Assembly: GCA_944319815.1 (NCBI GenBank)
Contig: CALUEX010000005.1
Span: 1 to 64,000, forward strand
Origin: an uncultured Prevotella sp.
GTDB lineage: Bacteria; Bacteroidota; Bacteroidia; Bacteroidales; Bacteroidaceae
DNA length: 64,000 nucleotides
Reading direction: 5' to 3'
Under the pieces are notes generated by a model that saw only the letters and a list, made by a program, of their open reading frames with translations, did no database searches and was not told where the DNA came from. Made by a program: the position numbers and the translations under genes. This document shows positions 6,545 through 59,765 of the stretch, in pieces (within the stretch, counting starts at the first letter, position 1; each line of letters starts with the position of its first letter).

Positions 6545-6555
6545 AAGCAGGCACC

Positions 6556-8932: not shown

Positions 8933-9226
8933 ACGCAGGCAACGGTTACGTGCGCAACTATATGCTGACGGTTAAAACCGTCGCGTACTTACAGTAAACT
9001 TGCTTCACTGACTTGTCTTTCCAAAGCCTGTTTACGGCAATACTCCGGCCCGGCAACCAACGTTTTTCCCAAACATTACCTTTTGCCTCGCGAAAGGCCA
9101 TCTTTTGAACCTTGAAAGATAACCTTTAACGAGGCAAAACGTGGCCTTACATAAAACGCCTTGTTTCACCACAGGGGAACAGGGGGCACAATGACACCGC
9201 CCAAGCCAAAGCATCCATGCCTTTAC
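8933..9226. repeat. Gap with a hairpin and an AAAGG/GGCC palindromic module
   Basis: No gene is supported here. A 16-bp palindrome (arms 967-973 and 976-982 of the 8000s, GACGGTT/AACCGTC) could end the TPR transcript. At 9074-9150 is a composite of short words including TTTTGCCTCG (9081-9090) and its exact inverse CGAGGCAAAA (9130-9139), with AAAGGCCATCTTTTG and AAAGATAACCTTT between. The same words recur in gaps near 17040, 26870, 36870, 48944 and 56705. Confidence 0.55.
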
Positions 9227-9940
9227 TCAACAAAGGCTGTGCTTGTCGATGTATTCCTGCACTATGTCCTTATAGCTTTCAGATACAGGGATGAACGTAT
9301 CGCCGATGACTATCCGGCTGCGCTCTATCATGTCAACCTTCGCCATGTTGACGATGAACGAACGGTGCACGCGAAGGAACTGCGGGCGAGGCAGGCTGTC
9401 TTCCACGGTCTTCATGTTCATCAGCGACATCACAGGCTTGCGGTTTTCGGTGAAATAAAACTTCACGTAGTCCTTGACGCCCTCGACATAGAGCACTATG
9501 TCAAAAGGCACCCTCACCAATTTGTACTCGCTCTTGACGTAAACGAACCTGTCATGCGACATCACGTCCTTACGCTCCTTGGCGCCAAACCACTCGACAA
9601 CCTTATCGACAGTCTTTATGAAGCTGTCGTAACTTATAGGCTTGAGCAGGTAGCCGGCGGCATCGACCTTATAGCCGTCAACGGCATAGCGGTCAAACGC
9701 CGTCGTGAAGACCACGCGCGTCTCCTTCGGCAGCAGCGTGGCAAACTCGAGGCCGCTCAGTTCAGGCATCTGTATGTCAAGGAACAAGAGATTAACGGGG
9801 TTGCCGCGAAGCTCTTTCATGGCCGTCACGGCACTGCCGTACACGCCGATAAGCCGTAATTCGGGCGTCTTCTTGGCATACGAGGCAAGAAGTTCCGCTG
9901 CCAGCGGCTCATCATCTATGATTGCACAAGTCAGTATCAT
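9227..9940 (-). CDS. LytTR-type response regulator
   Basis: 237 residues. Receiver domain at 1-120 with acidic pocket IIDDEP, phospho-acceptor D55 in LLFLDIQMP, T/S at VFTTAF and K in YLLKPI. The LytTR DNA-binding domain follows (about 135-235) and includes VKSEYKLVRVPFDIVLYVEG and FLRVHRSFIVNM. It partners the kinase encoded directly upstream, whose 3' end overlaps it by 29 bp. Both are the last genes of the efflux operon, so the system probably controls that operon; a 15-bp inverted repeat upstream of the operon promoter is a candidate target. Confidence 0.93.
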   Translation of the reverse strand: MILTCAIIDDEPLAAELLASYAKKTPELRLIGVYGSAVTAMKELRGNPVNLLFLDIQMPELSGLEFATLLPKETRVVFTTAFDRYAVDGYKVDAAGYLLKPISYDSFIKTVDKVVEWFGAKERKDVMSHDRFVYVKSEYKLVRVPFDIVLYVEGVKDYVKFYFTENRKPVMSLMNMKTVEDSLPRPQFLRVHRSFIVNMAKVDMIERSRIVIGDTFIPVSESYKDIVQEYIDKHSLC

Positions 9941-11018
9941 ATATTATAATTTTAGAGTAATATACATTATTTTGCCTGTCTACGCCGCGCTGCCACTCGT
10001 AACGCCCGGCATAAGCCAAATCCAACCGTCGCGCCACCTGCTCGAGGCCTATGCCGTGGCCGCTCTTGTCCGACGAGCTTTTAGGATGGTTGCTGTTCTT
10101 TATCTCACACTCGATTTTGCCGTCGCCCGCCATTATACTGATGGAGATGAAGCTTGGCTCGGTAGGGCTGACGCCGTGCTTGAAGGCGTTTTCAACAAGC
10201 GATATTAGGATGAACGGCGCCATGTAGACGTCGTGGCCGTCAGGTATGCGCACGTTGAAGTCTATCTTTACGTTCTTGTTGAGCCGCAGCTTCATCAGCT
10301 CAACATAGTTGCGGATGAAGTCGGCCTCGTCTTTTATGCTTACCGATGCCTTCTTGCCGCCGTACAGCATCTGCCTGAGCAACGCACTAAGCGAGAGCAC
10401 GGCCCGCTGCGCCTTGTCGCTGTCGAACGATATTAGGGCATATATGTTGTTGAGGGTGTTGAGCAGGAAGTGCGGGTTAATCTGGTTTTGCAGGTTCCTC
10501 AGTTCAGACTCCACCTTTTGCTTCTCCATCTCCTTGCGCGCAGCCTCGGTGGCCTGCCAGCGCATGGCCATACGCAGCAGCGTGGCAAGGACTACCGACA
10601 GGATGAACGGCATCACGTTGCGCGACGACCGCAGTAAGTACATTAACGGGCTGCCGTCGGGCTCATGGATAGGAGGTGGCCTGAAACCGGCCTCGAACTC
10701 CATTGTATGCAGCACGTTTGACAGCACTTGCATAAACACGGCCAGCACCACCACGACAACGACGTTGACACAGGCATACACCCTGACACGCCTTTGCATC
10801 AGGCAGCGCGGCACGAGCCAAAGGTAGTTCATGTAAAAGATGACACACAGGAAGAGCGGCATACTCAGGTGTATAAGCGTCATGTCGACGGTCTGTTCGA
10901 TGTGCATCGGGACAAACGTCACCGACGGCAAGGTCACCAATATCCAGCACACGGCATGGAACACAATGGTAAAGAACTTGTTTCTCGTCATGACTGCCTT
11001 TGCCTTATGCTTATTCAT
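9912..11018 (-). CDS. LytS/YehU-type sensor histidine kinase
   Basis: 368 residues. About four N-terminal membrane helices (13-35, 48-68, 78-100, 133-150) and no obvious extracytoplasmic sensor domain, a short coiled segment, then the His_kinase domain with acceptor H183 in QNQINPHFLLNTLNN and the HATPase region (FILISLVENAFKHGV, GHGIGLEQVARRL). It overlaps the permease gene by 8 bp upstream and the regulator gene by 29 bp downstream, so all three are translationally linked. Small membrane-only sensors of this type often sense membrane stress or work through a transporter; here the transporter is the adjacent MacB-like pump. Confidence 0.92.
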   Translation of the reverse strand: MNKHKAKAVMTRNKFFTIVFHAVCWILVTLPSVTFVPMHIEQTVDMTLIHLSMPLFLCVIFYMNYLWLVPRCLMQRRVRVYACVNVVVVVVLAVFMQVLSNVLHTMEFEAGFRPPPIHEPDGSPLMYLLRSSRNVMPFILSVVLATLLRMAMRWQATEAARKEMEKQKVESELRNLQNQINPHFLLNTLNNIYALISFDSDKAQRAVLSLSALLRQMLYGGKKASVSIKDEADFIRNYVELMKLRLNKNVKIDFNVRIPDGHDVYMAPFILISLVENAFKHGVSPTEPSFISISIMAGDGKIECEIKNSNHPKSSSDKSGHGIGLEQVARRLDLAYAGRYEWQRGVDRQNNVYYSKIIIYDTDLCNHR

Positions 11019-12249
11019 ACCTTATTGCCTCTATCGGGTCGAGCATCGCCGCCTTCTTCGCCGGATACCAGCCGAAGAACACGCCCGTGGCCGTACATAC
11101 GCAGAAACTCAACAGGACACTCCACGGCTGGATGAAGACGGGCCACTTTGCGAAGATGTTTACGCCGTAGGTAGCCCCTATGCCGATAAGGACACCTATT
11201 ATTCCGCCCGTCACGCTAAGCATGATTGACTCAATCAGGAACTGGCTAAGGATGTCCATCCCCCTTGCCCCGACGCTCATGCGAAGGCCTATTTCGCGCG
11301 TGCGCTCGGTCACGCTGACGTACATTATGTTCATGATGCCTATGCCGCCCACCACCAACGATATGCCGGCGATGCAGGCAAGGAGTATCGTCATGAGGTC
11401 GGTGGTAGAGTTCATCATCGTGGCGAGCTCCTCCTGCGAACGTATGTTAAAGTCATCCTCATCGCCCTCGCTGTCTTCGGTGGCGTCCTTCAGCTTATGC
11501 TGGGTGCGCAGTATGGCGGTGATTTCCTCCGTAGCCTTGTCGGTAAGGCCATCGGTCAGTGCCGAGCAGTTGATGCTCCCCAAGTAGGTTACGGCGAGGA
11601 TGCGCTTCATCACGGCCGAGTAAGGCGCAAAGACGAGGTCGTCCTGGTCCATGCCCATAGAATTGTAGCCCTTGCTTTTCAGCACGCCCACTATGCGGAA
11701 AGGTATGGTGTTGAACCTGATAACCTTGCCGACGGGGTCGCCGCCGTCCGGGAACAGGTTGTCTACGACGGTCTTCCCCACTACGCACACCTTTGCGCTT
11801 GACTTGATGTCCTCGTCAGTGAACATTTCGCCGTCCTCAACCGAAAGCTGGCGGATGGTGAGGTAGTCGCCGTTGACGCCATAGATGGTTGACGGAGTGT
11901 TGTTGTTGCCGTAAATAAACTGCCCCGAACTGCTGACGACGGGACTTATTGCGCTGATGTACTGGCACTGGTCTTTAAGTGCGTCATAGTCTGTCAGCTT
12001 CAACGTCTCCATCTCGGAAGCGTCACGGCGCACGCCGCCACGCATATCCTGGCCGGGCATTATCATAATCATGTTCGACCCCATTTCCGAGATTTGCTTC
12101 TGTATGCTTTTCTTGCTGCCCTGCCCTATGGCAAGCATCGTGATGACCGATGCCACGCCTATTATGATGCCGAGCATCGTCAGGAACGAGCGCAGCTTGT
12201 TGGCGGCGATGGCGCGCAAGGCTATTTTGAAAAGATTGGCTATGCTCAT
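11011..12249 (-). CDS. MacB-like ABC transporter permease
   Basis: 412 residues. N-terminal cytoplasmic helix and first membrane helix (ALRAIAANKLRSFLTMLGIIIG), a periplasmic MacB_PCD domain of about 200 residues, and three C-terminal membrane helices of the FtsX fold (VVGGIGIMNIMYVSVTERTREIGLR is split around residue 305). MacB-type machines do not carry substrate through the membrane but drive a TolC-linked periplasmic exit. In this operon the ATPase is a separate protein (12299-13066), unlike E. coli MacB where it is fused. Substrate is unknown: macrolides, peptides or lipids are all seen in the family. Confidence 0.93.
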   Translation of the reverse strand: MSIANLFKIALRAIAANKLRSFLTMLGIIIGVASVITMLAIGQGSKKSIQKQISEMGSNMIMIMPGQDMRGGVRRDASEMETLKLTDYDALKDQCQYISAISPVVSSSGQFIYGNNNTPSTIYGVNGDYLTIRQLSVEDGEMFTDEDIKSSAKVCVVGKTVVDNLFPDGGDPVGKVIRFNTIPFRIVGVLKSKGYNSMGMDQDDLVFAPYSAVMKRILAVTYLGSINCSALTDGLTDKATEEITAILRTQHKLKDATEDSEGDEDDFNIRSQEELATMMNSTTDLMTILLACIAGISLVVGGIGIMNIMYVSVTERTREIGLRMSVGARGMDILSQFLIESIMLSVTGGIIGVLIGIGATYGVNIFAKWPVFIQPWSVLLSFCVCTATGVFFGWYPAKKAAMLDPIEAIRYE

Positions 12250-12298
12250 GCTTTGCTTTAAGGTTTAAAGTTTTTGACGGGATACCGCACACAAAGGC

Positions 12299-13066
12299 TC
12301 AATCGTCCCTCGCGGGCGGCAGTTCGGCAAGCGACTTGGCCGCCGAGAGGATGTTGTCGTTCAGCGTGTCGCTGCGGATTTTGCCGTCACGCAGCACGAT
12401 GTTACGGCTCGAATAAGCGGCAATGTCCGGGTTATGTGTCACGAATATGATGGTGCGTCCTTCCGCATGGAGCTTCTGGAACAGCACAAGGATTTCGAAA
12501 GACGTGCGCGTGTCAAGGTTGCCTGTGGCCTCGTCGGCAAGCAGCACTGCCGGGTTGTTGACCAAGGCACGCGCTATGGCAACGCGCTGCATCTGCCCTC
12601 CCGACATCTGGTTTGACTTATGGTAAAGCCTGTCGCCAAGCCCTACGGCCTCAAGGGCGCGTATAGCACGTTCGCGGCGTTCCTTCGCGCTGACCGAAGG
12701 GTTGTACATCAACGGCAACTCGACATTATCCACGCTCGTCGTCTTTGGCAAAAGGTTGTAGTTCTGGAACACAAACCCGATTTTGCGGTTGCGCAACACG
12801 GCCCTGTCCGGCTTCTTCATCTTGCGCACGGAGATGCCGTCAAGGTAGTATTCACCGCGTGTCGGGGTATCCAAGCATCCTAACTGGTTAAGCAACGTTG
12901 ACTTACCCGAACCCGACTTGCCCATGATTGTGACGAACTCACCTTCGTAAATCTTGAACGAAACGCCACGCAAGGCATGGACGGTCTCGTCCCCGACACG
13001 AAACTCACGGTGCACATCCTGCAACTCTATGACAGCCTTCCTGCCGTCTCTAACATCCTCCGCCAT
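12299..13066 (-). CDS. MacB/LolD-type ABC transporter ATP-binding protein
   Basis: 255 residues from the ATG at 13066-13064. I prefer this start to one at 13177 because the longer form would overlap the adaptor gene by 107 bp and add 37 basic residues without family resemblance, while the chosen start lies 4 bp after the adaptor stop. Walker A GKSGSGKS is at 49-56, signature MSGGQMQRVAIARAL near 155, Walker B VLLADEAT next and the switch His in FVTHN. It energises the permease encoded 49 bp downstream. Confidence 0.94.
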   Translation of the reverse strand: MAEDVRDGRKAVIELQDVHREFRVGDETVHALRGVSFKIYEGEFVTIMGKSGSGKSTLLNQLGCLDTPTRGEYYLDGISVRKMKKPDRAVLRNRKIGFVFQNYNLLPKTTSVDNVELPLMYNPSVSAKERRERAIRALEAVGLGDRLYHKSNQMSGGQMQRVAIARALVNNPAVLLADEATGNLDTRTSFEILVLFQKLHAEGRTIIFVTHNPDIAAYSSRNIVLRDGKIRSDTLNDNILSAAKSLAELPPARDD

Positions 13067-13070
13067 ATCA

Positions 13071-14261
13071 TCACTTTTTGTCCTTCTTGTTCTGTCCAGG
13101 CCCTTTGGGAGCAAAAGGACTTGATTCTTGTTCGCCTCCGTCAGCTTCAGCAGGCACTTCGGGACCTTTCTGGGCAACCTTTATCTCCGTAACGACACGC
13201 GTGCCTTTCGCCAACCCGCCGAGAAGCTCGGTGTTAACACCGTCACTTATGCCTATTGTCACCGGGTGGGCCGTGAACACATTGTTGGCAAACGTCCACA
13301 CCTTGTTCTTGCCCTTGCAGTCTTTCACCTGTGCGTCGCCTATAAGTTCCTTTGTAGGCGTAAAGCGCAACGCCTTGTTCGGCACGCTAAGGACATCTTG
13401 CTTGTCAAGAGTATAGATTGTCACGTTAGCCGTAAGTCCCGGCTTCAACTTCAAGTCTTTGTTCGGCGCACTGATTACGACCTCGTATGTCACCACATTA
13501 TCCTCGGTATTGCCTTCCTGGCGCACTTGCGTGACCGTACCGCTGAACGTGTCATCAGGATATGCATCAACGGTAAACGTAACACGCTCACCTTCCCTCA
13601 CTTCACCAATGTCGGCCTCGTCAACATCGGCTATTACGCGCATATCGGTCAAGTCTTGGGCTATGGTGAACAGCGTAGGCGTCTCAAAGCTCGCCGCAAC
13701 GGTCTGCCCTTCCTCAACTTCACGTGAAAGCACCACGCCGTCAACAGGCGATGTTATGGTGGCATAGCCGAGGTTTGTCTGCGCCTGTTGCAGACTTTCA
13801 CGCCTTTGCTTTACCTCATCCTGTGCCTGGCGGTAAGCAAGCAGTGCCGTCTCATACTCGTCGGCACTTACAAGTCCCTTCTTGTAGAGCGTGCTGTAAC
13901 GGTTGTAGTTTGCCTTTTGGTAAGTCAACTGGCTTTGGGCATTGTTGAGGCTTGCCTTTGCCGTGTTGACCTCACTTACCAAGTTGGTCTTGTCAAGTTC
14001 GGCGATTACCTGGCCTTTCTTCACCACACTGTTGTAGTCAACGTAAATGTTGGCCACTATACCCGACACCTGCGTACCTACATCCACAGACGTCACTGGC
14101 TCTATCGTACCCGTGGCCGTGACACTGTTGGATATATCTCCATTGCCTATCACGGCCGTCTCGAATGACACTTCACGCTTGTCATTGCCGCAAAACGCGA
14201 GGCAACAACACAGCACCACAACTGCGGCAACGGCCAACCCTATAAAGATTTTCTTCTTCAT
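13071..14261 (-). CDS. MacA/HlyD-family periplasmic adaptor
   Basis: 396 residues. One N-terminal membrane anchor (IGLAVAAVVVLCCCLAFC), then the adaptor layout: half-lipoyl GTQVSGIVANIYVDYNSVV, alpha-hairpin of about 80 residues (LVSEVNTAKASLNNAQ to SLQQAQTNLG), second half-lipoyl ITSPVDGVVLSREV, beta-barrel and membrane-proximal domain. The last 30 residues are charged and low in complexity (Glu, Gly, Lys, Pro). It should join the MacB-like permease to a TolC channel in the periplasm. It is followed 4 bp later by the ATPase gene. Confidence 0.93.
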   Translation of the reverse strand: MKKKIFIGLAVAAVVVLCCCLAFCGNDKREVSFETAVIGNGDISNSVTATGTIEPVTSVDVGTQVSGIVANIYVDYNSVVKKGQVIAELDKTNLVSEVNTAKASLNNAQSQLTYQKANYNRYSTLYKKGLVSADEYETALLAYRQAQDEVKQRRESLQQAQTNLGYATITSPVDGVVLSREVEEGQTVAASFETPTLFTIAQDLTDMRVIADVDEADIGEVREGERVTFTVDAYPDDTFSGTVTQVRQEGNTEDNVVTYEVVISAPNKDLKLKPGLTANVTIYTLDKQDVLSVPNKALRFTPTKELIGDAQVKDCKGKNKVWTFANNVFTAHPVTIGISDGVNTELLGGLAKGTRVVTEIKVAQKGPEVPAEADGGEQESSPFAPKGPGQNKKDKK

Positions 14262-14271
14262 ACCTGTCTTT

Positions 14272-15594
14272 TTATATCATGTCTAATGTTTCCCCTTTAT
14301 AAAAATCAAGCAACTTCAGGTAGAGTATAGCCGTGTACTTGCTCTCCAAGCGGCTCTGCTGGGCATTGAGCAACGTCGTCTTGGCCGTTGTCAACTCCAC
14401 TATATTCTTCAAGCCGAGACTGAATTGCTCGCTCAACAGTTCGTAACTGTCCTGCGCGCTGCTTACGCTCACGCCGGCAGCCTTGAACCGTTCTTGGTTT
14501 GTCGTGGCGTTAATCCAATATCCCTGGATTGTAAGCGCGAGCTGGGCCTTGGCATCGTCAACCTCCGCCTTCGACTGTTGCAGGGCGATTTCGGCCTTGT
14601 TGACCGACGTCTTCGTGGCTCGGTTGTCAAAGATGGGGATGCTCAAGGTCACGCCAAGCGAACCGTTAAAGTTGCCCTTCATCTGGCTGCCCCATGCCGT
14701 ACCTGTCCCGCTCATTGTGTTAGTGCCTATGCCGCCGCTCAAGCTGACGGTGGGCATACGCCCGGCCTTTGCGATGTCGATGCTTACGTTGCCGCTCTCG
14801 ACGCCGAGCAAGGCGTTCCTTATCTCCGGGCGCACGGCCAAGGCGCTGTCAAGCACTTCACTCACCGAGGGCACGGCGGCAAGGGCCTGCCCGTCGGTTG
14901 ACGATGGCACGGCCAAGTCGAACACTACGTCATGGTCAAGCCTGAGCAGGTATTTCATTTGCTGCTTATAGTCCTCAAGCTGGCCTTGCATATTTACGAG
15001 ATTGTATTCGTCGGTTGCCACCTGGGCTTCAAGCTGCGACAAGTCGGCACGCGAAAGCGAGCCTACCTTATACATCTCCTCGCCGCGCGCGGCGTTCTGG
15101 CGGCTGATGTCGAGGATTTGACGGTCAACCTCCACCGCCTCGGCCACATACAAGATTTGTACGTATAGCTGCAAAATCTGTTCCTGTATGCTGTTGATGC
15201 TTTCCTCAAGCTGCAACTGCTCCTGTTGGCCCACTATTTTCTGTAGCTTCAGAGTGTTGCGGTTAGCATTTCCGTCCCATACTGTCCAGCTTGCGTTTAG
15301 CCCATAGTCACCAGAATAGGTGCCCTTGTCCTCATACGTACCGCCGTCGTCGGCAAAAGGCCGATAGCCTCCTTGGTGTGTCGTCGAGAACGACAGCGAA
15401 GGGAACAGCTTGGCGCGGGCCTCCTTAACGTCTTCCTCTGCCGAGAGCACCTACAGGCGAGCCGTCTTCACACTGATGTTGTGCTCCAAGGCGTAATCAA
15501 TGCAATCCTTCAAGGTCCATTGCCGCCCCGTGCCGGCCAACGCCCCGCACGACAGCAGCAGTCCGGCAACGCCCATTATAACCTGTTTTCTCAT
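14272..15594 (-). pseudogene. TolC-family outer membrane channel gene interrupted by an in-frame TAG
   Basis: Translation from the ATG at 15594-15592 gives a signal peptide (MRKQVIMGVAGLLLSCGALA) and the usual TolC opening WTLKDCIDYALEHNISVKTARL, then TAG at codon 48 (15453-15451), then continues in the same frame as VLSAEEDVKEARAKLFPSLS for 392 residues to the stop at 14272. The frame is otherwise intact, so the only lesion is one codon; TolC relatives have a residue such as Gln here, and CAG to TAG is a single transition. A downstream GTG directly after the TAG could restart translation, but the product would lack a signal peptide. The gene leads the efflux operon, so the pump may have lost its own exit duct or borrow another. 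A sequencing error or a readthrough codon cannot be excluded. Confidence 0.85.
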
Positions 15595-15618
15595 ATTACT
15601 GCAATTCTTTTTCTGAAA

Positions 15619-15626
15619 CAAAGTTA
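15619..15626 (-). promoter_or_regulatory. -7 box of the efflux operon promoter
   Basis: On the minus strand TAACTTTG fits TAnnTTTG. Transcription should start near 15612, about 18 nt before the tolC-like ATG at 15594. There is no clear TTTG at the -33 place, which would suit a promoter that needs an activator. Confidence 0.6.
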
Positions 15627-15652
15627 CACAGAAAATGGCAGCCGATAAAACG

Positions 15653-15695
15653 AAATGGATATATGTCGCCGATTAGTAGAGACACATATCCATTT
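15653..15695. promoter_or_regulatory. Inverted repeat, candidate regulator site for the efflux operon
   Basis: Arms AAATGGATATATGTC (15653-15667) and GACACATATCCATTT (15681-15695) are complementary at 14 of 15 positions, with a 13-bp spacer. The site centres about 50 bp upstream of the -7 box of the operon that encodes the LytTR regulator, a suitable distance for an activator dimer. Direct binding is inferred. Confidence 0.5.
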
Positions 15696-15738
15696 TGTCG
15701 ATACTAAGAAAACGGATTAACAATCTTTTAAGATTTTA

Positions 15739-16015
15739 CGGTTATGGGGTTATGGGGTTGTACGGTTGTGAGGTTGTACGGTTGTGAGGTTATGAGGTTA
15801 TGAGGTTGTACGGTTATGAGGTTGTGGGGTTATGCAGTTTTACGGTAATTGGGTTGTGAGGTTGTATCCGAGACGTTACACAACCCAGGGTCGCATAATA
15901 TAATAACCGCACACCTTAAACCATATAATAAACCCTATAACCGCACAACCTTAAAACCCTATAACCTCACAACCGCATAACCGCATAACCGTACAACCTC
16001 ATAACCCCATAACCT
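15739..16015. repeat. Two opposed arrays of 8-bp units (large hairpin-forming element)
   Basis: From 15739 to 15866 there are 16 back-to-back units of exactly 8 bp with consensus [CAG]GGTT[AG]T[GA] on the plus strand; 14 of 16 fit, two near the end are degenerate. From 16015 back to 15928 the same unit occurs at least 11 times on the minus strand, again at strict 8-bp spacing. About 60 bp of unrelated or decayed sequence lies between. The minus-strand array starts at the last base of the ribE stop codon. The two halves can pair into a very long imperfect hairpin. No coding frame is kept by an 8-bp unit. The element separates ribE from the efflux operon on the same strand. Confidence 0.9.
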
Positions 16016-16614
16016 CAAAACTGGTTGAGCCGTGCGATGTACTTGCCGAGGATGTCAAACTCGATGTTCACCTTCGAACCTATATGTATGTCGCTGAAGT
16101 TGGTATGCTCGAACGTATAAGGGATTATGGCCACGGTGAAAGTGTCGTCTGTAGGGTTGCACACCGTAAGCGAAACGCCGTTGACGGTTACGCTGCCCTT
16201 GTCGACAGTGAAGTAACCACGGCGCGCCATCTCTCGGTCGAACGGATACTTGAACGTGAAATACGTGCTGCCGTCGGCATCCTGCACGGCCACGCACTCT
16301 GCCGTCATGTCAACATGGCCCTGCACGATATGGCCGTCAAGACGACCGTTCATCATCATCGAGCGCTCCACGTTCACCCTGTCGCCCACCTTCAGCAGCC
16401 CGAGGTTCGAGCGGTCGAGCGTCTCCTTCATCGCCGTCACCGTGTAGCAGCCGTCGCCAAGGCGCACAACCGTAAGGCACACGCCGTTGTGCGACACGCT
16501 CTGGTCTATCTTCAACTCGCCCGCGAACGAGCATTCAAGCGTCAGGTCGATATTGCCCTGGCTTCTCTCTACGGCCTTGACAACAGCCGTTTCCTCAACT
16601 ATTCCGGAAAACAT
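16015..16614 (-). CDS. ribE: Riboflavin synthase alpha subunit
   Basis: 199 residues, standard length. It joins two 6,7-dimethyl-8-ribityllumazine molecules to give riboflavin. Starts MFSGIVEETAVV; the two lumazine-binding repeats span about 1-95 and 96-190, with SVSHNGVCLTV in the first, IVQGHVDMTA at the junction and GSVTVNGVSLTV in the second. It stands alone on the minus strand; no other riboflavin gene is near. A leader of about 255 nt with strong predicted structure precedes it and an 8-bp repeat array begins at its stop codon. Confidence 0.96.
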   Translation of the reverse strand: MFSGIVEETAVVKAVERSQGNIDLTLECSFAGELKIDQSVSHNGVCLTVVRLGDGCYTVTAMKETLDRSNLGLLKVGDRVNVERSMMMNGRLDGHIVQGHVDMTAECVAVQDADGSTYFTFKYPFDREMARRGYFTVDKGSVTVNGVSLTVCNPTDDTFTVAIIPYTFEHTNFSDIHIGSKVNIEFDILGKYIARLNQF

Positions 16615-16646
16615 TGCTATTTTTTAATGGTTTAATGATACAATAT

Positions 16647-16669
16647 AGGGCAGGAACACGTCCTGCCCT
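16647..16669 (-). promoter_or_regulatory. Hairpin just upstream of ribE
   Basis: Perfect 9-bp stem AGGGCAGGA/TCCTGCCCT with a 5-nt loop, ending 33 nt before the ribE ATG. It is not followed by a T run on the minus strand, so it is a poor intrinsic terminator; it may be an attenuator or the 3' border of the structured RNA. Confidence 0.5.
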
Positions 16670-16674
16670 TATAG

Positions 16675-16872
16675 TAAAGACCGTACCGGTGATGTGATGA
16701 AAACTCCGAGCTATATAAGATTTGAGAGCTCTCCGCCTTTGTAATCCACCGGCTTTACAGCTATGCCTCGCGGCATTGTGGCCCGCCATTAGCAAGAGAA
16801 GTCATCTCGGTTTTCGTTTTTTTATTGATGAGTATCCCGATCGAACCAAGTACGGCCTGTTTCTCTCTTGGT
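16675..16872 (-). ncRNA. Candidate structured leader RNA or stand-alone small RNA upstream of ribE
   Basis: The minus-strand transcript from the promoter at 16908-16877 can fold extensively. A closing helix of 8 pairs (16850-16857 with 16679-16686, one G-U) encloses about 160 nt. Inside are a 5-bp stem with a GCGA GNRA tetraloop (16763-16776) and a GAGCU/AGCUC stem (708-712 with 727-731 of the 16000s). A rival 5' hairpin (AACCAAG/CTTGGTT, 16844-16850 with 16867-16873) cannot coexist with the closing helix, so two states are possible. I looked for the FMN riboswitch core (GGGUGAAAUUCCC, ACCGGCGGU, GCCGACAGU) and did not find it; cobalamin and TPP boxes are also absent. A 6S-type RNA is another option. 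Identity is open. Confidence 0.45.
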
Positions 16873-16876
16873 TTTG

Positions 16877-16908
16877 CAAAGATAAGCATTTATTCCAAAC
16901 CGCACAAA
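16877..16908 (-). promoter_or_regulatory. Promoter for the ribE leader RNA
   Basis: Minus strand TTTG (16908-16905), 20 nt, TATCTTTG (16884-16877): an ideal Bacteroidetes promoter. The predicted start near 16871 lies about 255 nt from the ribE ATG, leaving room for the structured RNA. Confidence 0.75.
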
Positions 16909-16920
16909 TATTTAAGCGTG

Positions 16921-17500
16921 AAAAATTCATAACCGAGCCCTGCCCTGTCTAAATGCGGCGGCACAATCGCCCCGCCAGCCTGCGCCAACGGTTCGCGCAG
17001 GCTGGCATGACGGCAAGCAGGCAAGCGCCTGGCTATCAACGCCTTGCCAAAAGGCCGCAAATCGCATTGCAAGACGTGCCCTTTTACCGTGCGATTTGTG
17101 CCGTTTCGCATGACGATTTGTGGCCTTTTTCAACACGGCTTTACTGAGCCTATGCGCAAGGAGAATTACAGCGGACGCAAAAACAAGTTAGGCTTCAGAT
17201 GAAAGCCCAAGGCGGCCAAACAGCAAAATTAATGGAAGCAAGACTTGAATTTTTGCATTACATACGCAGCTTGCCAAATAAAAATTCGTAACTTTGCAAT
17301 CAACAATGGTCATGGGCACGAGCTTAATATGCCCAACAGAAGCAAAAAGTACCGACCATAACCAACTTGGCACACATACCTTACGAAGGTTCAACAAGGC
17401 TTAAACTTAATCTGGGACACACGGAACGGAAACTTGCACGCGGTTACCTTGGCTTAACGGACACGCCAAAAGCCAATGCATGAAAAACCGCCGTCATTAA
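16921..17500. repeat. Gene-free gap with an AAAGG/GGCC module (17035-17135)
   Basis: No plausible gene is present. At 17035-17135 lie words of the dispersed module family (CCAAAAGGCCGC, GACGTGCCCTTTT, TGTGGCCTTTTT) mixed with repeated CGATTTGTG/CGCAAATCG words. A TAACTTTG at 17289-17296 could be the -7 box for the restriction endonuclease gene, but it lacks a well placed TTTG and would give a leader of over 200 nt in which nothing else was recognised. Confidence 0.45.
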
Positions 17501-17527
17501 ATGATAATATTAAAATGTAACATACAA

Positions 17528-18331
17528 ATGACGAAAGAAGAATTTTTCAATCTTCTATCAGAAGAAGTCAAGACATATAAAACATATCTTGAAACCGACG
17601 GGCACGATTGGATTGTGAAGGGATTTGTTGACGTCAACAAGAACGTCTACACAATAACGAATGACACGAAAGTTGTTTCCAAGATTATAGAGATACTGCT
17701 CATTCCCAAGTTAGACAAATTCGCCAACGACAATGGATTGGTGATGGAATTGCCGTCAAAGCAAAACTTCTACCCTGATTTGACGTTCAAGGACAACTCT
17801 GGCAATCTTTTTGCAGTAGATTTTAAGTCAAGCTATTATTCGGGCGACAGCGTTAACGGCTTAACGCTTGGCTCGTATTGGGGATATTTCCGGGACAGGG
17901 ATACAGTGAAAAATATGGATTATACGTATAATTCGTATATTTCACACAACGTTTTGGGCATATTATACAAAAAAAGCGTTGCCGGCGGAAATGAAAAAAA
18001 CATATTCTCCATTGATGAATTGCCAATCATCCATTCTGTTATCGAGAATTTCATCTTCTTCGTGCAGCCTAAATGGAAAATTGCAAACGACATACCTGGA
18101 AGCGGAAATACGAGAAACATTGGCGGCATAACAAACATACAGGACTTAATAAGCGGGAACGGCCCTTTCTCGTCGTTAGGTGAAGATGTCTTTAATGATT
18201 ATTGGATGGGATACTTCAACAATGCAGATGCTAAAAACGCCGGTATCGGAGTGCCTAAATACCATAATCTGAAGACATACCAAGAATATCTTGAACAGCA
18301 AGCCGCAAAATTAGACAAACTAAAGAAATAA
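17528..18331 (+). CDS. EcoRV-type type II restriction endonuclease
   Basis: 267 residues from the ATG at 17528; an in-frame ATG at 17501 would add nine residues, but similarity to EcoRV begins with MTKEEFFNLL so I prefer the inner one. Shared with EcoRV: NDTKVVSKIIEIL (E55, cf. E45), NFYPDLTF (D84, cf. D74), FAVDFKSS (D98 and K100, cf. D90 and K92), and the DNA-recognition loop GSGNTRNIG against GSGNTTNIG. Conservation of that loop predicts blunt cutting in GATATC. The partner methylase starts 3 bp after the stop. The pair is visibly AT-richer than its neighbours, which suggests acquisition. No controller protein gene was found. Confidence 0.9.
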   Translation: MTKEEFFNLLSEEVKTYKTYLETDGHDWIVKGFVDVNKNVYTITNDTKVVSKIIEILLIPKLDKFANDNGLVMELPSKQNFYPDLTFKDNSGNLFAVDFKSSYYSGDSVNGLTLGSYWGYFRDRDTVKNMDYTYNSYISHNVLGILYKKSVAGGNEKNIFSIDELPIIHSVIENFIFFVQPKWKIANDIPGSGNTRNIGGITNIQDLISGNGPFSSLGEDVFNDYWMGYFNNADAKNAGIGVPKYHNLKTYQEYLEQQAAKLDKLKK

Positions 18332-18334
18332 ACC

Positions 18335-19288
18335 ATGCCGACCATTATACCTCCGATAAAATCACAAGGAATAAAGACAAAACTTGTCCCTTGGATAAAC
18401 GACATAATACTTCGCTCAGGAATAGATATTGCAAGGGCGAATTGGATAGAACCGTTCTTCGGCACGGGAGTTGTAGGGATAAATTCTCCGCTTAAGGGGA
18501 ATTTTGTTGTAGGCGACACCAATCCGCACATCATAAATTTCTACAATAGGATATTAAAGGGTGAAATAACCCCAACGAATATGCGCACATACCTTGAGCA
18601 TGAAGCCAAGAAACTTTCTGCAGCCGACGAAAAAGGTTATGCGTATTATCGCGAGATAAAAGACAGGTTTAACAGCCTTCATTCACCATTTGATTTCATA
18701 TTCTTGTCAAGAGCTGGCTTCAACGGTATGATGCGTTTCAACCGTAAAGGCGAATGGAACGTGCCGTTTTGCAAGAAACCTAACAGGTTCTCACCGGCTT
18801 ACATCACAAAAATCTGCAACCAAGTGTATGCGGTTCAGCGCATAATACTGGAGAAAAAATGGGAATTTATCAACCAAGGCTTCACCGAAACAATAAAAAG
18901 AGCAAGGAAAGGAGACTTGATTTATTGTGACCCTCCGTATTTCGGAAGGTACGTTGACTATTACAATGGATGGACAGAAAGAGACGAGCAAGACCTGTTT
19001 GAGGCTTTATCCAATACGGAAGCCAACTTCATTTTATCCACATGGCACCATAACGAGTTTCGCTCGAACGAAATGCTCACACGCTATTGGGGCAGGTTTA
19101 ACGTATTGACTAAAGAGCATTTTTATCATGGAGGCGCACATATCGAAAACAGGCATAGCATGATTGAAGCCTTGGTATTCAACTTTGAACTGACAGACGT
19201 ATCCCTATCCAGGACGAAACGGGTAATCCAATACGACCTATTCAGCAACAAGCCACAAGAAAAACCAGTTTCGACAACCGTATATTGA
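18335..19288 (+). CDS. DNA adenine methyltransferase, M.EcoRV/Dam type
   Basis: 317 residues. Alpha-class N6-adenine methylase of the Dam group: AdoMet motif I as IEPFFGTGVVGIN (about 39-51), VGDTNPHIINFYN next, SRAGFNGMMRFN in the middle and the catalytic DPPY in DLIYCDPPYFGRY (about 193-205). It should protect the host by methylating an adenine of the site cut by the adjacent EcoRV-like enzyme, predicted GATATC. It is 3 bp downstream of the nuclease gene, so nuclease and methylase come from one message, with nuclease first. Confidence 0.93.
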   Translation: MPTIIPPIKSQGIKTKLVPWINDIILRSGIDIARANWIEPFFGTGVVGINSPLKGNFVVGDTNPHIINFYNRILKGEITPTNMRTYLEHEAKKLSAADEKGYAYYREIKDRFNSLHSPFDFIFLSRAGFNGMMRFNRKGEWNVPFCKKPNRFSPAYITKICNQVYAVQRIILEKKWEFINQGFTETIKRARKGDLIYCDPPYFGRYVDYYNGWTERDEQDLFEALSNTEANFILSTWHHNEFRSNEMLTRYWGRFNVLTKEHFYHGGAHIENRHSMIEALVFNFELTDVSLSRTKRVIQYDLFSNKPQEKPVSTTVY

Positions 19289-19401
19289 TTTCAAGACTTT
19301 CGCCAGACCGAAACAATAAAGACTCAAACGTTACGGAATTAGCCAAGCGCACATACATTAAAATATAAGCGAAGAACATACTCTATTTCAAAAATAAAAT
19401 G

Positions 19402-19409
19402 TAATTTTG
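19402..19409 (+). promoter_or_regulatory. -7 box of the mltG promoter
   Basis: TAATTTTG fits TAnnTTTG; start expected near 19415, about 14 nt before the mltG ATG. The -33 element is not clear. Confidence 0.5.
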
Positions 19410-19428
19410 CGCACAAAATAATGTCAAT

Positions 19429-20454
19429 ATGAAAAAAATAAGCTCAAGGAAATTTATCATTCCAGCCGTGGCTTGCCTCGCCGTGATAATTTTCTTATGC
19501 TATTACTACTTTTTCACGGCAATGACCAACGGTGGCGGCAGCCGCTTCGTCTATATCGACGAGGACGACAACATCGACTCCGTTTACGCCCAGCTTGACA
19601 CCATGTCGTCACGTCACGCCTTGGCGGGCTTCAAGACATTGGTGAGACATAGCTCCTATGAAGACAACATACGCACGGGGCGCTATGAGATTGAGGAAGG
19701 CAACAGCGCATTCACCGTGTTCAGGAAGCTGAAGAACGGCTTGCAGTCATCGGTCAGGCTGACCATCCCGAGCGTGCGCACTGCCGACAAGCTGGCCGGT
19801 GCTCTGTCGAAGAAACTGATGGCTGACAGCGCCGCCATATACGCCGCCCTTACCGACTCGGCCACTTGTGCCAAGTATGGCTATCGGCCGGAGACGATGC
19901 TGTGTATGTTCATCCCGAACACTTACGAGGTATATTGGAATACGTCTATCGGCAAGTTGCTCGACAAGATGGCCGACGAAAGCAAGAAGTTCTGGAACTT
20001 CGAGCGCACGCAGAAGGCCAAGGCGATGGGCTTCACCAAGGAGGAAGTCATCACCCTGGCAAGCATCGTTGACGAGGAGACGGCCAACGACGCCGAAAAA
20101 CCAATGGTTGCCGGGATGTACTTCAACCGCCTGAAAAAGGATATGCCACTCCAGGCTGACCCCACAATCAAGTTCGCCCTGAAGGATTTTGACATTCGAC
20201 GCATATACCACAATATGCTGAATGTCAACAGCCCGTACAACACTTACAAGAACACGGGCCTTCCGCCGGGGCCAATCAGGATACCGACGGTAGCCGGCAT
20301 CGACGCCGTGCTCAACCACGTACACCATAATTATTTATATATGTGCGCCAAAGAGGACTTCAGCGGCACGCACAACTTTGCCGAGACTTACCAAGAGCAC
20401 CTGCAAAACGCCGCGAAATACTCGGCCGCGCTGAACAAGAGAGGAATAAAATAA
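19429..20454 (+). CDS. mltG: Endolytic murein transglycosylase MltG (YceG-like)
   Basis: 341 residues. One N-terminal membrane anchor (FIIPAVACLAVIIFLCYYYFF), then the LysM-like region and the YceG catalytic domain. The hallmark ASIVDEETA (211-219) carries the catalytic Glu, by alignment with ASIVEKET most likely E217; MYFNRLKKDMPLQADPT and SPYNTYKNTGLPPGPI are also invariant family segments. It cuts nascent glycan strands and so sets their length. It lies after the restriction-modification pair and is followed by glnS. Confidence 0.95.
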   Translation: MKKISSRKFIIPAVACLAVIIFLCYYYFFTAMTNGGGSRFVYIDEDDNIDSVYAQLDTMSSRHALAGFKTLVRHSSYEDNIRTGRYEIEEGNSAFTVFRKLKNGLQSSVRLTIPSVRTADKLAGALSKKLMADSAAIYAALTDSATCAKYGYRPETMLCMFIPNTYEVYWNTSIGKLLDKMADESKKFWNFERTQKAKAMGFTKEEVITLASIVDEETANDAEKPMVAGMYFNRLKKDMPLQADPTIKFALKDFDIRRIYHNMLNVNSPYNTYKNTGLPPGPIRIPTVAGIDAVLNHVHHNYLYMCAKEDFSGTHNFAETYQEHLQNAAKYSAALNKRGIK

Positions 20455-20455
20455 A

Positions 20456-20530
20456 GCAGACAAGAAACGAGGGACGAGCAGACAAGAAACAGGGTAAACA
20501 TCATTGCAAACTTGCATCTTGTCACTTGTC
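20456..20530 (+). repeat. Degenerate GACAAG-word array between mltG and glnS
   Basis: Repeats of GACAAGAAACGAG-like words (twice as CAGACAAGAAAC) are followed by CTTGTCACTTGTCAACTC, the inverse word. A related tract, with GACAAGTTGACAAGTAACAAG-like sequence, lies at 39712-39765. Confidence 0.5.
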
Positions 20531-20554
20531 AACTCAAAAAAACATAAAAGGAAC

Positions 20555-22267
20555 ATGACAACGGAAGTAAAGAATGAAGAGGAAAAAAAGAGCCTCAGCT
20601 TTGTAGAGCAAATAGTAGAGAAAGACCTGGCCGACGGCAAGAACGGCGGACGAATACAGACACGCTTCCCGCCGGAACCTAACGGATACCTCCACATCGG
20701 GCACGCAAAGGCCATCTGCATGGACTTCGGCGTGGCCGAAAACTACGGCGGGGTGTGCAACCTGCGTTTCGACGACACCAACCCGAGCAAGGAGGACACC
20801 GAATATGTTGACTCCATACTGAACGACATCCAGTGGCTTGGCTTCCATTGGGCCAACGTCTACTACGCTTCAGACTACTTCCAGCAGCTGTGGGACTTCG
20901 CCGAATGGATGATTAAGCAGGGCATGGCTTACGTTGACGAACAGACCAGCGAGCAAATCGCAGAGCAGAAGGGAACTCCGACACAGCCGGGAACGCCCTC
21001 GCCATACCGCGACAGGCCCGTGGAAGAGAGCCTTGAACTGTTCCACAAGATGAACACTCCGGAGGCTGAGGAAGGCTCGATGGTACTGCGTGCAAAACTG
21101 GACATGGCCAACCCCAATATGCACTTCCGCGACCCAATCATGTATCGCATAATACATACGCCCCACCATCGTACCGGAACCAAGTGGAACGCTTACCCGA
21201 TGTATGACTTCGCCCACGGGCAGAGCGACTATTTCGAGGGCGTAACCCACTCAATCTGCACGCTTGAGTTCGTCCCCCACCGTCCGCTGTACGACAAGTT
21301 CATCGACGAGCTGAAGACCTATAAGGGCGAAGGTGACAACCTTGGCGACTTCCGCCCGAGGCAGATAGAGTTCAACCGTCTCAATCTCACCTACACCGTG
21401 ATGAGCAAGCGCAAGCTGCACGCGCTGGTGGACGAGGGCAAAGTGAACGGATGGGACGACCCCCGTATGCCCACCCTGTGCGGTATGCGCCGCCGCGGAT
21501 ACTCGCCTGAAAGCATCAAGAACTTCATAAAGAGCATCGGATACACCAAGTTTGACGCACTTAACGACATGGCCCTGCTTGAAGCCGCCGTGCGCGAAGA
21601 CCTTAACAAGCGTGCCATCAGGGTGTCGGCCGTGCTCAATCCCGTAAAGCTCGTTATCACGAACTACCCTGACGGACAGACCGAGGAAATGGAAGCTGTG
21701 AACAACCCGGAGAACGAGGCTGACGGAACGCACACAATAACGTTCAGCAAGAACCTATGGATAGAGCGCGACGACTTCATGGAAGATGCCCCGAAAAAGT
21801 TTTTCCGCATGACCCCAGGACGCGAAGTGCGCCTGAAAAATGCCTATATAATAAAATGTACAGGCTGCACGAAAGACGAAAACGGCAACATTGTTGAGAT
21901 ACAGGCAGAATATGACCCTGCAAGCAAAAGCGGCATGGAGGGTGCCAACCGCAAGGTAAAAGGCACGCTGCACTGGGTAAGTGCTGACCACTGCAAGAAA
22001 GCCGAAGTGAGGATTTACGACCGTCTGTTCAACGTCGAGAACCCGTCAGCCGACGAGCGGGACTTCAGGGAACTGCTAAATCCCGATTCGTTGACAATCA
22101 TGGACAACTGCTACGTAGAGAACTACGCCGCAGATAAACACCCCGGAGAGTACCTGCAATTCCAACGCATAGGTTATTTCATGGCCGACCTCGATTCTTC
22201 ATCCGACAAACTCGTGTTCAACAAGACCGTCGGACTGAAAGATACATGGTCTAAGATAAACAAATAA
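20555..22267 (+). CDS. glnS: Glutaminyl-tRNA synthetase
   Basis: 570 residues from the ATG at 20555, preceded by AAAAGGAAC. An in-frame ATG at 20504 would place 17 unrelated residues in front and lies inside repeat sequence, so it is rejected. Class I synthetase: HIGH motif in PPEPNGYLHIGHAK (47-50) and KMSKS-type VMSKRK near 283. The usual GlnRS anticodon-binding beta-barrel follows from about 340. Presence of GlnRS means Gln-tRNA is charged directly. Confidence 0.96.
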   Translation: MTTEVKNEEEKKSLSFVEQIVEKDLADGKNGGRIQTRFPPEPNGYLHIGHAKAICMDFGVAENYGGVCNLRFDDTNPSKEDTEYVDSILNDIQWLGFHWANVYYASDYFQQLWDFAEWMIKQGMAYVDEQTSEQIAEQKGTPTQPGTPSPYRDRPVEESLELFHKMNTPEAEEGSMVLRAKLDMANPNMHFRDPIMYRIIHTPHHRTGTKWNAYPMYDFAHGQSDYFEGVTHSICTLEFVPHRPLYDKFIDELKTYKGEGDNLGDFRPRQIEFNRLNLTYTVMSKRKLHALVDEGKVNGWDDPRMPTLCGMRRRGYSPESIKNFIKSIGYTKFDALNDMALLEAAVREDLNKRAIRVSAVLNPVKLVITNYPDGQTEEMEAVNNPENEADGTHTITFSKNLWIERDDFMEDAPKKFFRMTPGREVRLKNAYIIKCTGCTKDENGNIVEIQAEYDPASKSGMEGANRKVKGTLHWVSADHCKKAEVRIYDRLFNVENPSADERDFRELLNPDSLTIMDNCYVENYAADKHPGEYLQFQRIGYFMADLDSSSDKLVFNKTVGLKDTWSKINK

Positions 22268-22283
22268 GGCCAACCACCATGCG

Positions 22284-22321
22284 ATTAAGGAGCCAAGCGG
22301 ATTGTTGCTTGGCTCCTTAAT
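22284..22321 (+). terminator. Terminator after glnS
   Basis: Perfect 15-bp stem ATTAAGGAGCCAAGC/GCTTGGCTCCTTAAT with an 8-nt loop, 16 nt after the glnS stop. There is no long T run, but the stem is strong. Confidence 0.7.
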
Positions 22322-22352
22322 TGCCATTGCATCAACCTGAAACAGAACGAAA

Positions 22353-23786
22353 ATGTCATACAATTCTGAAGATTATTTCTTGTCAAACGATTTCAAGACC
22401 TTACTTAAACGGTTCGAGGAAGCCGAGAATGAAGGTCGATTTGCAATGCTCGACCCTGACGAGCTTGTTGACATTGCCGAGTATTATTACAACAACGGCA
22501 AGGCCGACAAAGCTGACGAAATAATCGAAAGAACCCTCTCGGTGTATCCAGGAAGTGCCGCCCCGCTATTGTTCAAGGCGCGGCTGGCTCTTATCGAGGA
22601 TAAAGACACGGCAAAAGCTGAATACTTCACCGAAATGATTGAAGACAAGACGGACAATGAATACTTCTACATGAAAGCCGAAATCTTGCTATACCAAGGC
22701 AAGACAGAAGAAGCCGATGCATACTTAAAAGAAAAATTTGACGAGACAGACGAAGAGGATAAAGACTATTTCGCCATTGATTCCGCAGCCCTGTTCATAG
22801 ACTATGATGCGATAGGGACTGCCGAGAAATGGCTGAAACTCAGTGAAGACACCGACTCGATTGACTACAAGGAACAGGCGGCCCGCATCTGTCTTGAAAA
22901 CGGCGAGTACGAAAAGAGCAAAAAACTTTACAACGAACTGATTGACAACGACCCGTTTTCGACACAATACTGGAACTCCCTGGCCTCGTCGCAGTTCTTC
23001 AGTAACAACATAGAAGAATCCATCCAGAGCAGTGAATACTCAATAGCAATAAACCCGAACAACACTGCAGCACTGCTCAACAAGGCAAACGGCCTGTACA
23101 ATCTCGGAAACTACAAAGAGGCGTTAGTGTATTACAAAAGATACAACAAGCTGTGCCCAAACGATGAAAACGGTGAAATGTTGGTGGGATTTTGCTGTCT
23201 GCTCTTAGAAAATTACGAAGAAGCCATTGAGCATCTCAGAAAAGCCGAGAAGCTGTCAGAGCCGCAATCACCAAGCCTCATCGACATATACAAAGACTGG
23301 GCGTTCGCATTGTGCAGAATTGGAAGAATTGAAGAATGCATGGCCGTACTTGACAAGACAAACCTACTTGACTGCGACCACGACGAAATCCTCATCTACC
23401 GCGGTTGCCTGCTTGCAGGAAGTGGCTACCATACTGAAGCCAGGCGACTTTTCCTGAAAGCGCTCAAAAGGTCTGGATATTCACCAAATACATTCACGAA
23501 AATCGCCATAACCGTCTATGAAAGCGGCGACCCGGCTTTCGCTTACAGCATATTCAAGAATATGTATGGCTTCTATAAACATTGGACCGATGGCTATGCC
23601 TACTTTGCCGCGTGCTGTTACGACCTTGGCAAAACGAACGAATTTCTACAAAGTCTTGACTCCGCAGCCAAATATTCACCAAAAGAGCTGAAGTTCCTTA
23701 TCGGGAAACTTTTTCCTGAAGGAATGGAACCCAAAGACTACTACAAATATATGGTTGACAAAATAAAGAGAGACGGAAAGATTTAG
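22353..23786 (+). CDS. Cytoplasmic TPR-repeat protein
   Basis: 477 residues without a signal peptide or membrane segment. Helical repeats run through most of the length, clearest at ELVDIAEYYYNNGKADKADE (about 37-56), ARICLENGEYEKSKKLYNEL, ALLNKANGLYNLGNYKEALV and MLVGFCCLLLENYEEAIEHL. It is strongly acidic. This looks like a scaffold or adaptor protein; no partner is visible in the neighbourhood, since glnS ends with its own terminator and the next gene is convergent. Confidence 0.88.
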   Translation: MSYNSEDYFLSNDFKTLLKRFEEAENEGRFAMLDPDELVDIAEYYYNNGKADKADEIIERTLSVYPGSAAPLLFKARLALIEDKDTAKAEYFTEMIEDKTDNEYFYMKAEILLYQGKTEEADAYLKEKFDETDEEDKDYFAIDSAALFIDYDAIGTAEKWLKLSEDTDSIDYKEQAARICLENGEYEKSKKLYNELIDNDPFSTQYWNSLASSQFFSNNIEESIQSSEYSIAINPNNTAALLNKANGLYNLGNYKEALVYYKRYNKLCPNDENGEMLVGFCCLLLENYEEAIEHLRKAEKLSEPQSPSLIDIYKDWAFALCRIGRIEECMAVLDKTNLLDCDHDEILIYRGCLLAGSGYHTEARRLFLKALKRSGYSPNTFTKIAITVYESGDPAFAYSIFKNMYGFYKHWTDGYAYFAACCYDLGKTNEFLQSLDSAAKYSPKELKFLIGKLFPEGMEPKDYYKYMVDKIKRDGKI

Positions 23787-23873
23787 AGCTTTCGTTTTAT
23801 AAACGCTACACTTATAACACACATCCACAAATACGCTCCTGCCGCCACAATGAAAGTCGATAGGAAACAAGAA

Positions 23874-23929
23874 CAAAAAACTTTCGTCTTCTGCCTAAAC
23901 CGTTTGTCAGTTTGCGCAGAAGGCGAAAG
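23874..23929 (-). terminator. Terminator of dedA-like gene
   Basis: Arms at 23881-23894 and 23916-23929 (CTTTCGTCTTCTGC and GCAGAAGGCGAAAG, one G-T pair). On the minus strand the stem is followed by TTTTTTG (23880-23874), so it is an intrinsic terminator for the gene at 23978-24619; on the plus strand it may also stop the TPR transcript. Confidence 0.75.
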
Positions 23930-59535: not shown

Positions 59536-59765
59536 ATAAGGAGTTAAGAAGCCTTGTTCTTTCTTTAGGAGTTAAGGAGTTAGGAAGTTAAGGAGTTAAG
59601 ACAATAGCTTTTTCCTGTAGTTAAAGGGAGTTTTTCGCTCGCCTCACTCGCTAAGGAGTTAAAGACAATAGCTTTTTCTTTTAGGAGTTAAGGAGTAATG
59701 GAGTAAAGGAGTTAAGACATTAGCTTTTTCACCTGTCACCTCCCCTCGGGGAGGTTGGGAGGGGC
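59536..59765 (+). repeat. GAGTTAAG-word array ending in CCTCCCC palindrome, copy 2
   Basis: Units TAGGAGTT-AAGGAGTT-AGGAAGTT-AAGGAGTT and later GGAGTTAA-GGAGTAAT-GGAGTAAA-GGAGTTAA-GACATTAG step by 8 bp, separated by ACAATAGCTTTTT blocks, then CACCTCCCCTCGGGGAGG. The last ~90 bp match 37600-37695 almost base for base. It fills the whole gap upstream of the FadL-like gene and, by the minus-strand view, downstream of the aromatic-rich protein gene. No promoter was recognised in it. Confidence 0.8.

Follow-up and report, generated by a model that had tools for sequence, protein, structure and literature searches.

Short-unit repeats in bacteria are mostly regarded as slippage noise or as phase switches. 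Long simple sequence repeats have units of 5-11 nt, of which heptamers are the commonest (Mrazek 2007, as given in PMC4679880). The closest described case that we found to the element analyzed here is the TAACTGA heptamer system, reported from Beggiatoaceae, Cyanobacteria, and five Bacteroidetes. According to its description from the BOGUAY genome, these repeats are direct, fixed in sequence, and present in two to six copies, with one inverted case in 170 sets (PMC4679880). REP/BIME and REPIN elements are described as dispersed intergenic palindromes that form mRNA hairpins, each short and fixed (PMC3116915, PMC12306157). In the Bacteroidales, BrickBuilt is a 23-nt minisatellite within a MITE of Porphyromonas gingivalis, and its copy number varies among strains (PMC4596501). 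Template switching at quasi-palindromes is a mechanism that makes inverted arms alike; the accounts cited here concern imperfect inverted repeats rather than tandem arrays spread across a genome (PMC7202029, PMC8604942). A survey reports that perfect inverted repeats are enriched after bacterial stop codons generally, and the words Bacteroid and Prevotella are absent from its main text (PMC13155455).

The array described here lies between a ribE-like gene and an efflux operon in a window of 64,000 nt, by which we mean the whole stretch of DNA that was analyzed. It belongs to a set of arrays in the same genome, called GGTT arrays after the core of their unit. Like long simple sequence repeats, these arrays are tandem, intergenic, and built of a short unit, and slippage has been proposed for that class (PMC4679880). 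Unit size and putative slippage place the array among them. They differ from it in their opposed arms, fixed polarity, and strongly degenerate units, in filling gaps from stop to start, and in having the unit replaced by another at the orthologous gaps of sister species. With the TAACTGA repeats they share many intergenic sets per genome, a phylogenetically patchy distribution, and a position near start codons (PMC4679880), but the unit is a degenerate octamer, GGTTRTNN, in opposed arms that are anchored at stop codons too, and the array is not a member of that system. Like REP/BIME elements they are dispersed intergenic palindromes, also found between operon genes (operon membership being judged from gene function), but no fixed palindrome of 20-40 nt, of the kind that a RAYT transposase moves, is common to the loci, and the arms are many 8-bp units of free sequence. 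BrickBuilt resembles them in being an intergenic tandem repeat of Bacteroidales with predicted long stem-loops, but its units measure 23 nt, it ends in terminal inverted repeats, and some copies have target duplications (PMC4596501), features of which none was seen for GGTT arrays. Our searches of open-access papers turned up no account of opposed arrays of 7-9-bp units in Bacteroidales in which one unit is replaced by another. We see in the array short-unit repeats arranged as gap fillers that are self-complementary, fixed in polarity, and replaceable.

The octamer array in the ribE gap

The left arm consists of 16 consecutive octamers in strict register, and the core GGTTRT is present in all but AGTTTTAC (position 15836) and GGTAATTG (15844). 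On the reverse strand, ten octamers run in register from 16014 downwards, nine with an exact core and one with GGTTTT; GGTTTATT follows the tenth, and then the register is gone. The core is the fixed part of the octamer, and unit positions 5, 7, and 8 vary throughout the array. An earlier note on this DNA had counted sixteen exact octamers facing at least eleven. Its sixteen are indeed in strict register, but "exact" is too strong for units with three variable positions, and eleven is reached only by counting GGTTTATT. The same note had the array begin at the ribE stop codon, and the first right-arm unit (16014-16007, reverse strand) starts 1 base past the TGA, at the very next base; the decayed middle that it described between the arms is also present. 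Coordinates are collected in Table 1.

Table 1. Features of the ribE gap and its surroundings in the window.
Feature	Position	Strand	Remark
Outer-membrane efflux protein gene, main open frame, downstream of the array	14272..15450	-	5' part (to about 15594) is cut off from it by an in-frame stop
18-bp inverted repeat in the efflux-operon leader, outside the array	15650..15698		similar sequence kept in L053 and L054
Left arm, 16 GGTTRTNN octamers (14 exact cores)	15740..15867	+	3' hairpin arm on the sense (-) strand
Decayed middle, register lost	15868..15934		forms the loop and the upper part of the stem in the predicted fold
Right arm, ten octamers (9 exact cores)	15935..16014	-	5' hairpin arm on the sense strand
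ribE-like gene with two lumazine-binding domains, adjoining the array on its upstream side	16015..16614	-	
Second array of the same general class, GGAGTTAA units	59540..59725	+	

The regularity is beyond chance, as had been claimed: the identity at lag 8 across 15739-16016 was 0.60, whereas a first-order Markov null gave a mean of 0.253 (sd 0.028) and a maximum of 0.348 in 2000 sequences, and the 8-bp period thus persists under autocorrelation. A three-unit pattern matched 15 times in the window and never in 100 dinucleotide shuffles, and the units lie head to tail in register, as in a short-unit tandem array. A repeat finder scored the arms as inverted repeats that are 84% complementary across 90 nt. 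The proposed giant hairpin is possible, because the sense-strand RNA folds into one long stem of -146.8 kcal/mol; none of 200 shuffles was as good (mean -75.97, sd 4.98; z -14.2), although any two opposed arms would give such a fold. Known identities were rejected, since no Rfam family was detected at the array and terminator-like sites numbered 0 in 15450-16100 (shuffles 0.8), with no stem-loop followed by a T-run. Past ribE, the same strand encodes the outer-membrane efflux protein, a membrane-fusion protein, an ABC ATPase, and a MacB-like permease, followed by a histidine kinase and a LytTR response regulator.

GGTT arrays in the genome and in relatives

The earlier note had named a genome-wide search for NGGTTRTR arrays as a check. 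The three-unit pattern matched 65 times at 19 places in the 2.78-Mb own genome (54 contigs) and the reversed-pattern control once; for the two-unit pattern the figures were 154 and 4. Among the two-unit matches listed (100 of 154) there are at least 25 array places, and more may exist. Around 24 places outside the window we retrieved 22 stretches, two of which (L043 and L045) contain only weak two-unit matches. The wider unit GGTTNTNN matched 208 times in the own genome; the genomes of L053, L054 (Marseilla massiliensis), and L057 had 12, 117, and 211 matches, respectively, and five other genomes had none. The three-unit GGTTRT pattern occurred in 12 of 151 genomes of the family, the own genome included. 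In the order, a four-unit GGTTNT pattern occurred in 13 of 247 genomes, several of which have plain simple repeats or a reversed control that is equally frequent. Among the genomes compared, strong expansion is thus confined to this small clade. Five contigs of M. massiliensis (G152: C13, C17, C30, C88, and C290) start or end within GGTT arrays, so draft assemblies may conceal the longest ones.

For the own genome, M. massiliensis, and G153, we studied gaps whose array has three or more units, leaving out four arrays that lie within called frames and gaps at contig ends; the loci of the latter two genomes were selected because they carry arrays. Two arms were present in 12 of 23, 12 of 21, and 7 of 27 gaps, respectively. 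In all 31 two-armed gaps the GGTT arm comes first, orthologous gaps being entered once per species, so that the two halves, when both occur, invariably face each other in the same sense, a point that the earlier note had wanted recorded. One-armed arrays were common (11/23, 9/21, and 20/27 gaps), and 39 of these 48 lay nearer the gene from which GGTT points inward, with 9 that did not. The median array in the 23 co-directional two-armed gaps started 6 nt past the stop codon and ended 9 nt ahead of the next start codon, as we computed from the gap lists. By flanking strands, the 71 GGTT gaps comprised 56 co-directional, 9 divergent, and 6 convergent ones; the GGTT family itself is thus not depleted in divergent gaps. 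The convergent gaps, all from G153, show the same polarity, which speaks against a start codon as the cause of the polarity. Array-flanking gene pairs include an MlaE permease with an ABC ATPase, GreA with a HIT protein, and DUF4374 with PepSY_TM, and on gene function some of these pairs are probably operons. Other arrays separate genes that have no evident connection, for example a class II tRNA synthetase and a deaminase. One gap (L052:4946-5205) has a stop-side arm of AAAGGTA type and a start-side arm of AACC type, which are non-complementary, each in its usual polarity.

Replacement of the unit and the wider class of arrays

The nearest named relative found, L053 (protein 95% identical), has an opposed array of AGGAGTAA-like units directly after the ribE stop codon, followed by the same efflux-operon leader as in the own genome. 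The earlier note would have counted an array-free locus in related genomes against its view. This is half of what we saw: three or more in-register GGTTRT units occurred at only one of 80 other named ribE loci (L120, Bacteroides nordii), but in L053 the same base is the site of an opposed array built of another unit. Neither in M. massiliensis (L054) nor in L057 is ribE followed by an array. In B. nordii, which is outside the clade, one-armed AYAACC-like units lie directly after ribE (L120:5596-5648), and the genome has no three-unit GGTTNT match despite this run. A loose criterion placed a periodic inverted repeat directly after ribE in L053, L058, L078, L095 (with a period of 12), L096, and L106. 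These 6 of 80 named loci are close to the general rate of 15 in 327 gaps, so there is no special link to ribE and we rejected it as an array hot spot.

Among loci selected for their arrays, the orthologs of six own GGTT gaps also have a GGTT array, which differs from the own one in length and in the order of its units; five of these orthologs are in M. massiliensis, and the sixth, where the array is one-armed in both species, is in G153. The own GGTT gap L050 faces a GACAAG-type hairpin whose 46-nt arms are perfectly complementary by eye, and a neighbouring own gap, of AATTGAG units, faces GGTTTT units in the ortholog. We compared 96 pairs of orthologous gaps, from which 23 with both gaps shorter than 40 nt were dropped. 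Among the remaining 73, the 15 pairs in which the own gap has a periodic inverted repeat included 7 in which the other species has one too, as compared with 5 of the 58 pairs in which the own gap has none (odds ratio 9.3, p 0.0018); this result is conditioned on the own genome, because the regions were array-rich 20-kb stretches picked there (L134, L135, L136, and L144), together with 5000-24999 of the window. One own gap may enter several pairs, and the seven shared pairs stem from six own gaps. By eye, one of the five cases found in the other species only (L136 14867) is not an array, and two found in the own genome only (L134 13364 against G151 and G152) resemble arrays despite failing the period test. 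The unit differs in every one of the seven shared gaps, and does so in both arms, as judged by eye on the printed arms. In the other 8 of the 15 pairs the periodic inverted repeat was absent from the other species, so the array is dispensable. The earlier note's idea of a self-propagating repeat finds partial support here, in that units and lengths turn over fast and another unit can occupy the same site.

GGTT arrays are one unit family in a wider class of opposed arrays of purine-rich 7-9-bp units. Our sample from the own genome, 464 kb in all, was made up of 400 kb taken from contig starts and of the window, which includes the array under study. Here and in the gap comparisons above, genes were called by our own simple codon-usage caller, and score and period thresholds were fixed after a first look. 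Intergenic tandem periodicity in this sample was nearly limited to 7, 8, and 9 bp, their sums, and 22 bp, with none in shuffles. Among 249 gaps 50-1500 nt long, 20 had a periodic inverted repeat, and in 19 of these the G-rich arm led; among 44 other inverted repeats, 15 were G-first and 27 C-first. At the 80 ribE loci, 12 of the 15 periodic inverted repeats (327 gaps) were G-first and 2 C-first, as were 15 and 7, respectively, of 24 other inverted repeats. When both samples were pooled and restricted to periods 6-9 (32 of 576 gaps), arrays occupied 25 of 362 tandem and 7 of 80 convergent gaps and none of 134 divergent gaps, against 32 of 442 other gaps (p 0.0003); other inverted repeats fell in 39 tandem, 22 convergent, and 10 divergent gaps (p 0.05). 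The array was nearer the stop than the start codon in 24 of 25 tandem gaps, as were 30 of 39 other inverted repeats. Units of the class include GGTTATNN, GGAGTTAA, AATTGAG, AATTAAG, AATTATG, AATGAAT, AAAAGGTA, and GACAAGC. Several are few bases apart, for example GGTTATGA and AATTATGA, and on this likeness they may descend from one another. Three-unit matches to GGAGTTAA number 49 in the own genome and 112 in that of L116, and arms of this type recur near-identically at many sites. The 22-bp period is frequent in own intergenic DNA (L133-L152; 34 segments in 77.6 kb) and recalls the 23-nt BrickBuilt minisatellite. A dispersed repeat family of about 200 nt (L144:6281-6483) has many copies in the L053 genome at 70-75% identity.

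Nested duplications of 8, 16, 24, 44, and 66 bp, those of 44 and 66 bp lying inside the arrays of L035 and L033, point to growth by slippage. Copying between arms is suggested by irregular stretches common to both arms of one locus: exact stretches of 31 nt in L051, 30 nt in L050, and 23 nt in the ribE array each exceed what the same arm has in common with the opposed arms of 22 other loci. Over the 23 loci, the same-locus shared stretch was above all 22 cross-locus ones in five (in one of them only 10 nt and within a reading frame), and same-locus arms were among the best three by alignment score in six. Most loci showed no excess of arm likeness by either measure. Since only some loci stand out, we claim arm copying for those loci alone; the co-variation between arms that the earlier note had looked to is thus a matter of some loci, L051, L050, and the ribE array among them, and no genome-wide signal. 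Different GGTT loci have no common core beyond the unit, and cross-locus exact stretches do not exceed 26 nt.

Origin and possible role of the arrays

We tentatively favour the reading, with a probability of roughly 45%, that the array is a quasi-palindromic satellite that grows by slippage and arm copying and is kept because it gives the mRNA a hairpin, of whatever sequence, at the ends of genes and between those of an operon. The array itself, its capacity to fold, and its placement, polarity, and turnover are shown; how it grows and what it does are inferred. Tandem 8-bp units in two opposed arms would occupy gene gaps of Prevotella relatives, growing and turning over through slippage, and arm-to-arm copying, as in quasi-palindrome template switching, would keep the arms alike. 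The RNA would fold back from just past the stop codon to just ahead of the next start codon, so that the insert would hide itself in the message. REP/BIME elements occur between operon genes, and the hairpin may work like one of them there and at gene ends. The predicted path from stop to start had a median of 15 nt in 16 two-armed GGTT gaps as compared with 27 nt in 171 array-free tandem gaps (p 0.0012), 38 nt in shuffles of the same gaps, and 21 nt in 36 gaps with other periodic inverted repeats. This short path fits a hairpin that hides the insert. In 16 one-armed gaps the path was 30.5 nt, with no difference from array-free gaps (p 0.30). The reading also draws on the single long stem, the uniform polarity of two-armed gaps and their stop-to-start placement, the avoidance of divergent gaps and the stop-side position of the wider class, the shared presence at orthologous gaps with both arms changed, and the arm-specific exact stretches. 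Against it count the wobble test given below, the frequent one-armed arrays, the arm likeness at only some loci, the presence of the GGTT family in divergent gaps, the negative terminator and Rfam results at the array, and the eight orthologous pairs that do without it.

A bolder form of this reading holds that only the fold is kept: Bacteroidales would harbor, across their genomes, a class of self-homogenising palindromic satellites. From one species to the next, the unit would be replaced in both arms at once, the hairpin would remain at its gene junction and bring the stop and the next start together, and the operon would tolerate or even use an insert of whatever length and sequence. We regard this form as rather doubtful.

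A distinct possibility, though one that we lean against, is that the array grows in the same way and has no function. It would then be a satellite born of a mutational hot spot, able to survive nowhere but in gene gaps and mostly as the least harmful palindromes, and its persistence at orthologous gaps would be inheritance. The fast turnover of unit and length, the one-armed arrays, and the many orthologous gaps that lack the array all agree with this. So does the wobble test. Of the 23 loci, 16 score at least 14 when their own arms are aligned; on the sense strand of these, 31 arm differences were G-U-compatible and 57 incompatible, the wrong direction for RNA pairing (orientation being arbitrary for three divergent loci; p ~0.006 by our own normal approximation), which contradicts fine selection for RNA pairing. 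The lack of function by itself, however, leaves unexplained why the wider class avoids divergent gaps and is anchored at the stop side, and, if arm copying is left out, why the same new unit stands in both arms of every shared gap. If the fold is what is kept, the arrays would be a natural experiment in sequence-free RNA structure of operons; if it is not, they would be a bacterial satellite with concerted evolution. Both readings are testable in a cultured relative such as M. massiliensis.

It is improbable that the arrays are copies of a mobile element, that is, MITE- or REP-like palindromes moved by a transposase and expanded later. Many dispersed sites with a single polarity, the patchy occurrence in the family, and the near-identity of GGAGTTAA-type arms would suit such an origin, but GGTT loci share nothing beyond the unit and short exact stretches, and arrays fit base-exactly between stop and start, not at a fixed target.

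The earlier note had also raised a transcription terminator or barrier separating ribE from the efflux operon, and this we consider very improbable. A strong hairpin directly after the stop codon, a conserved leader of the efflux operon's own beyond the array, and the tie of the wider class to gene 3' ends would be expected of one. But there is no terminator-like site with a T-run at the array, T-rich tails follow 7 of 25 periodic arms as compared with 14 of 66 other inverted repeats, and GGTT arrays also stand between likely operon partners. A barrier special to ribE is not supported, given the 19 places in the genome and the absence of the array after ribE in L054 and L057. A binding array for a sequence-reading protein or an RNA-binding regulator can hardly be credited: the fixed GGTTRT core with its two variable last bases, and AYAACC sides that end a median of 9 nt ahead of starts as TAACTGA repeats do elsewhere (PMC4679880), recall one, but arms flank stops and starts alike, and a sequence reader would not allow another unit at orthologous gaps.

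Beside the array, the TolC-like efflux gene has an in-frame stop after about 48 codons (15451-15594, reverse strand). The efflux gene of L053 aligns full length across this site, and the stop reflects either an interrupted gene or a sequence error. A 6S-type RNA (Rfam RF01693, 130.9 bits) lies directly upstream of ribE at 16673-16857 on the reverse strand. Within 17501-19288 on the forward strand is a gene for an EcoRV-type restriction endonuclease, and the next open frame resembles a DNA methylase.
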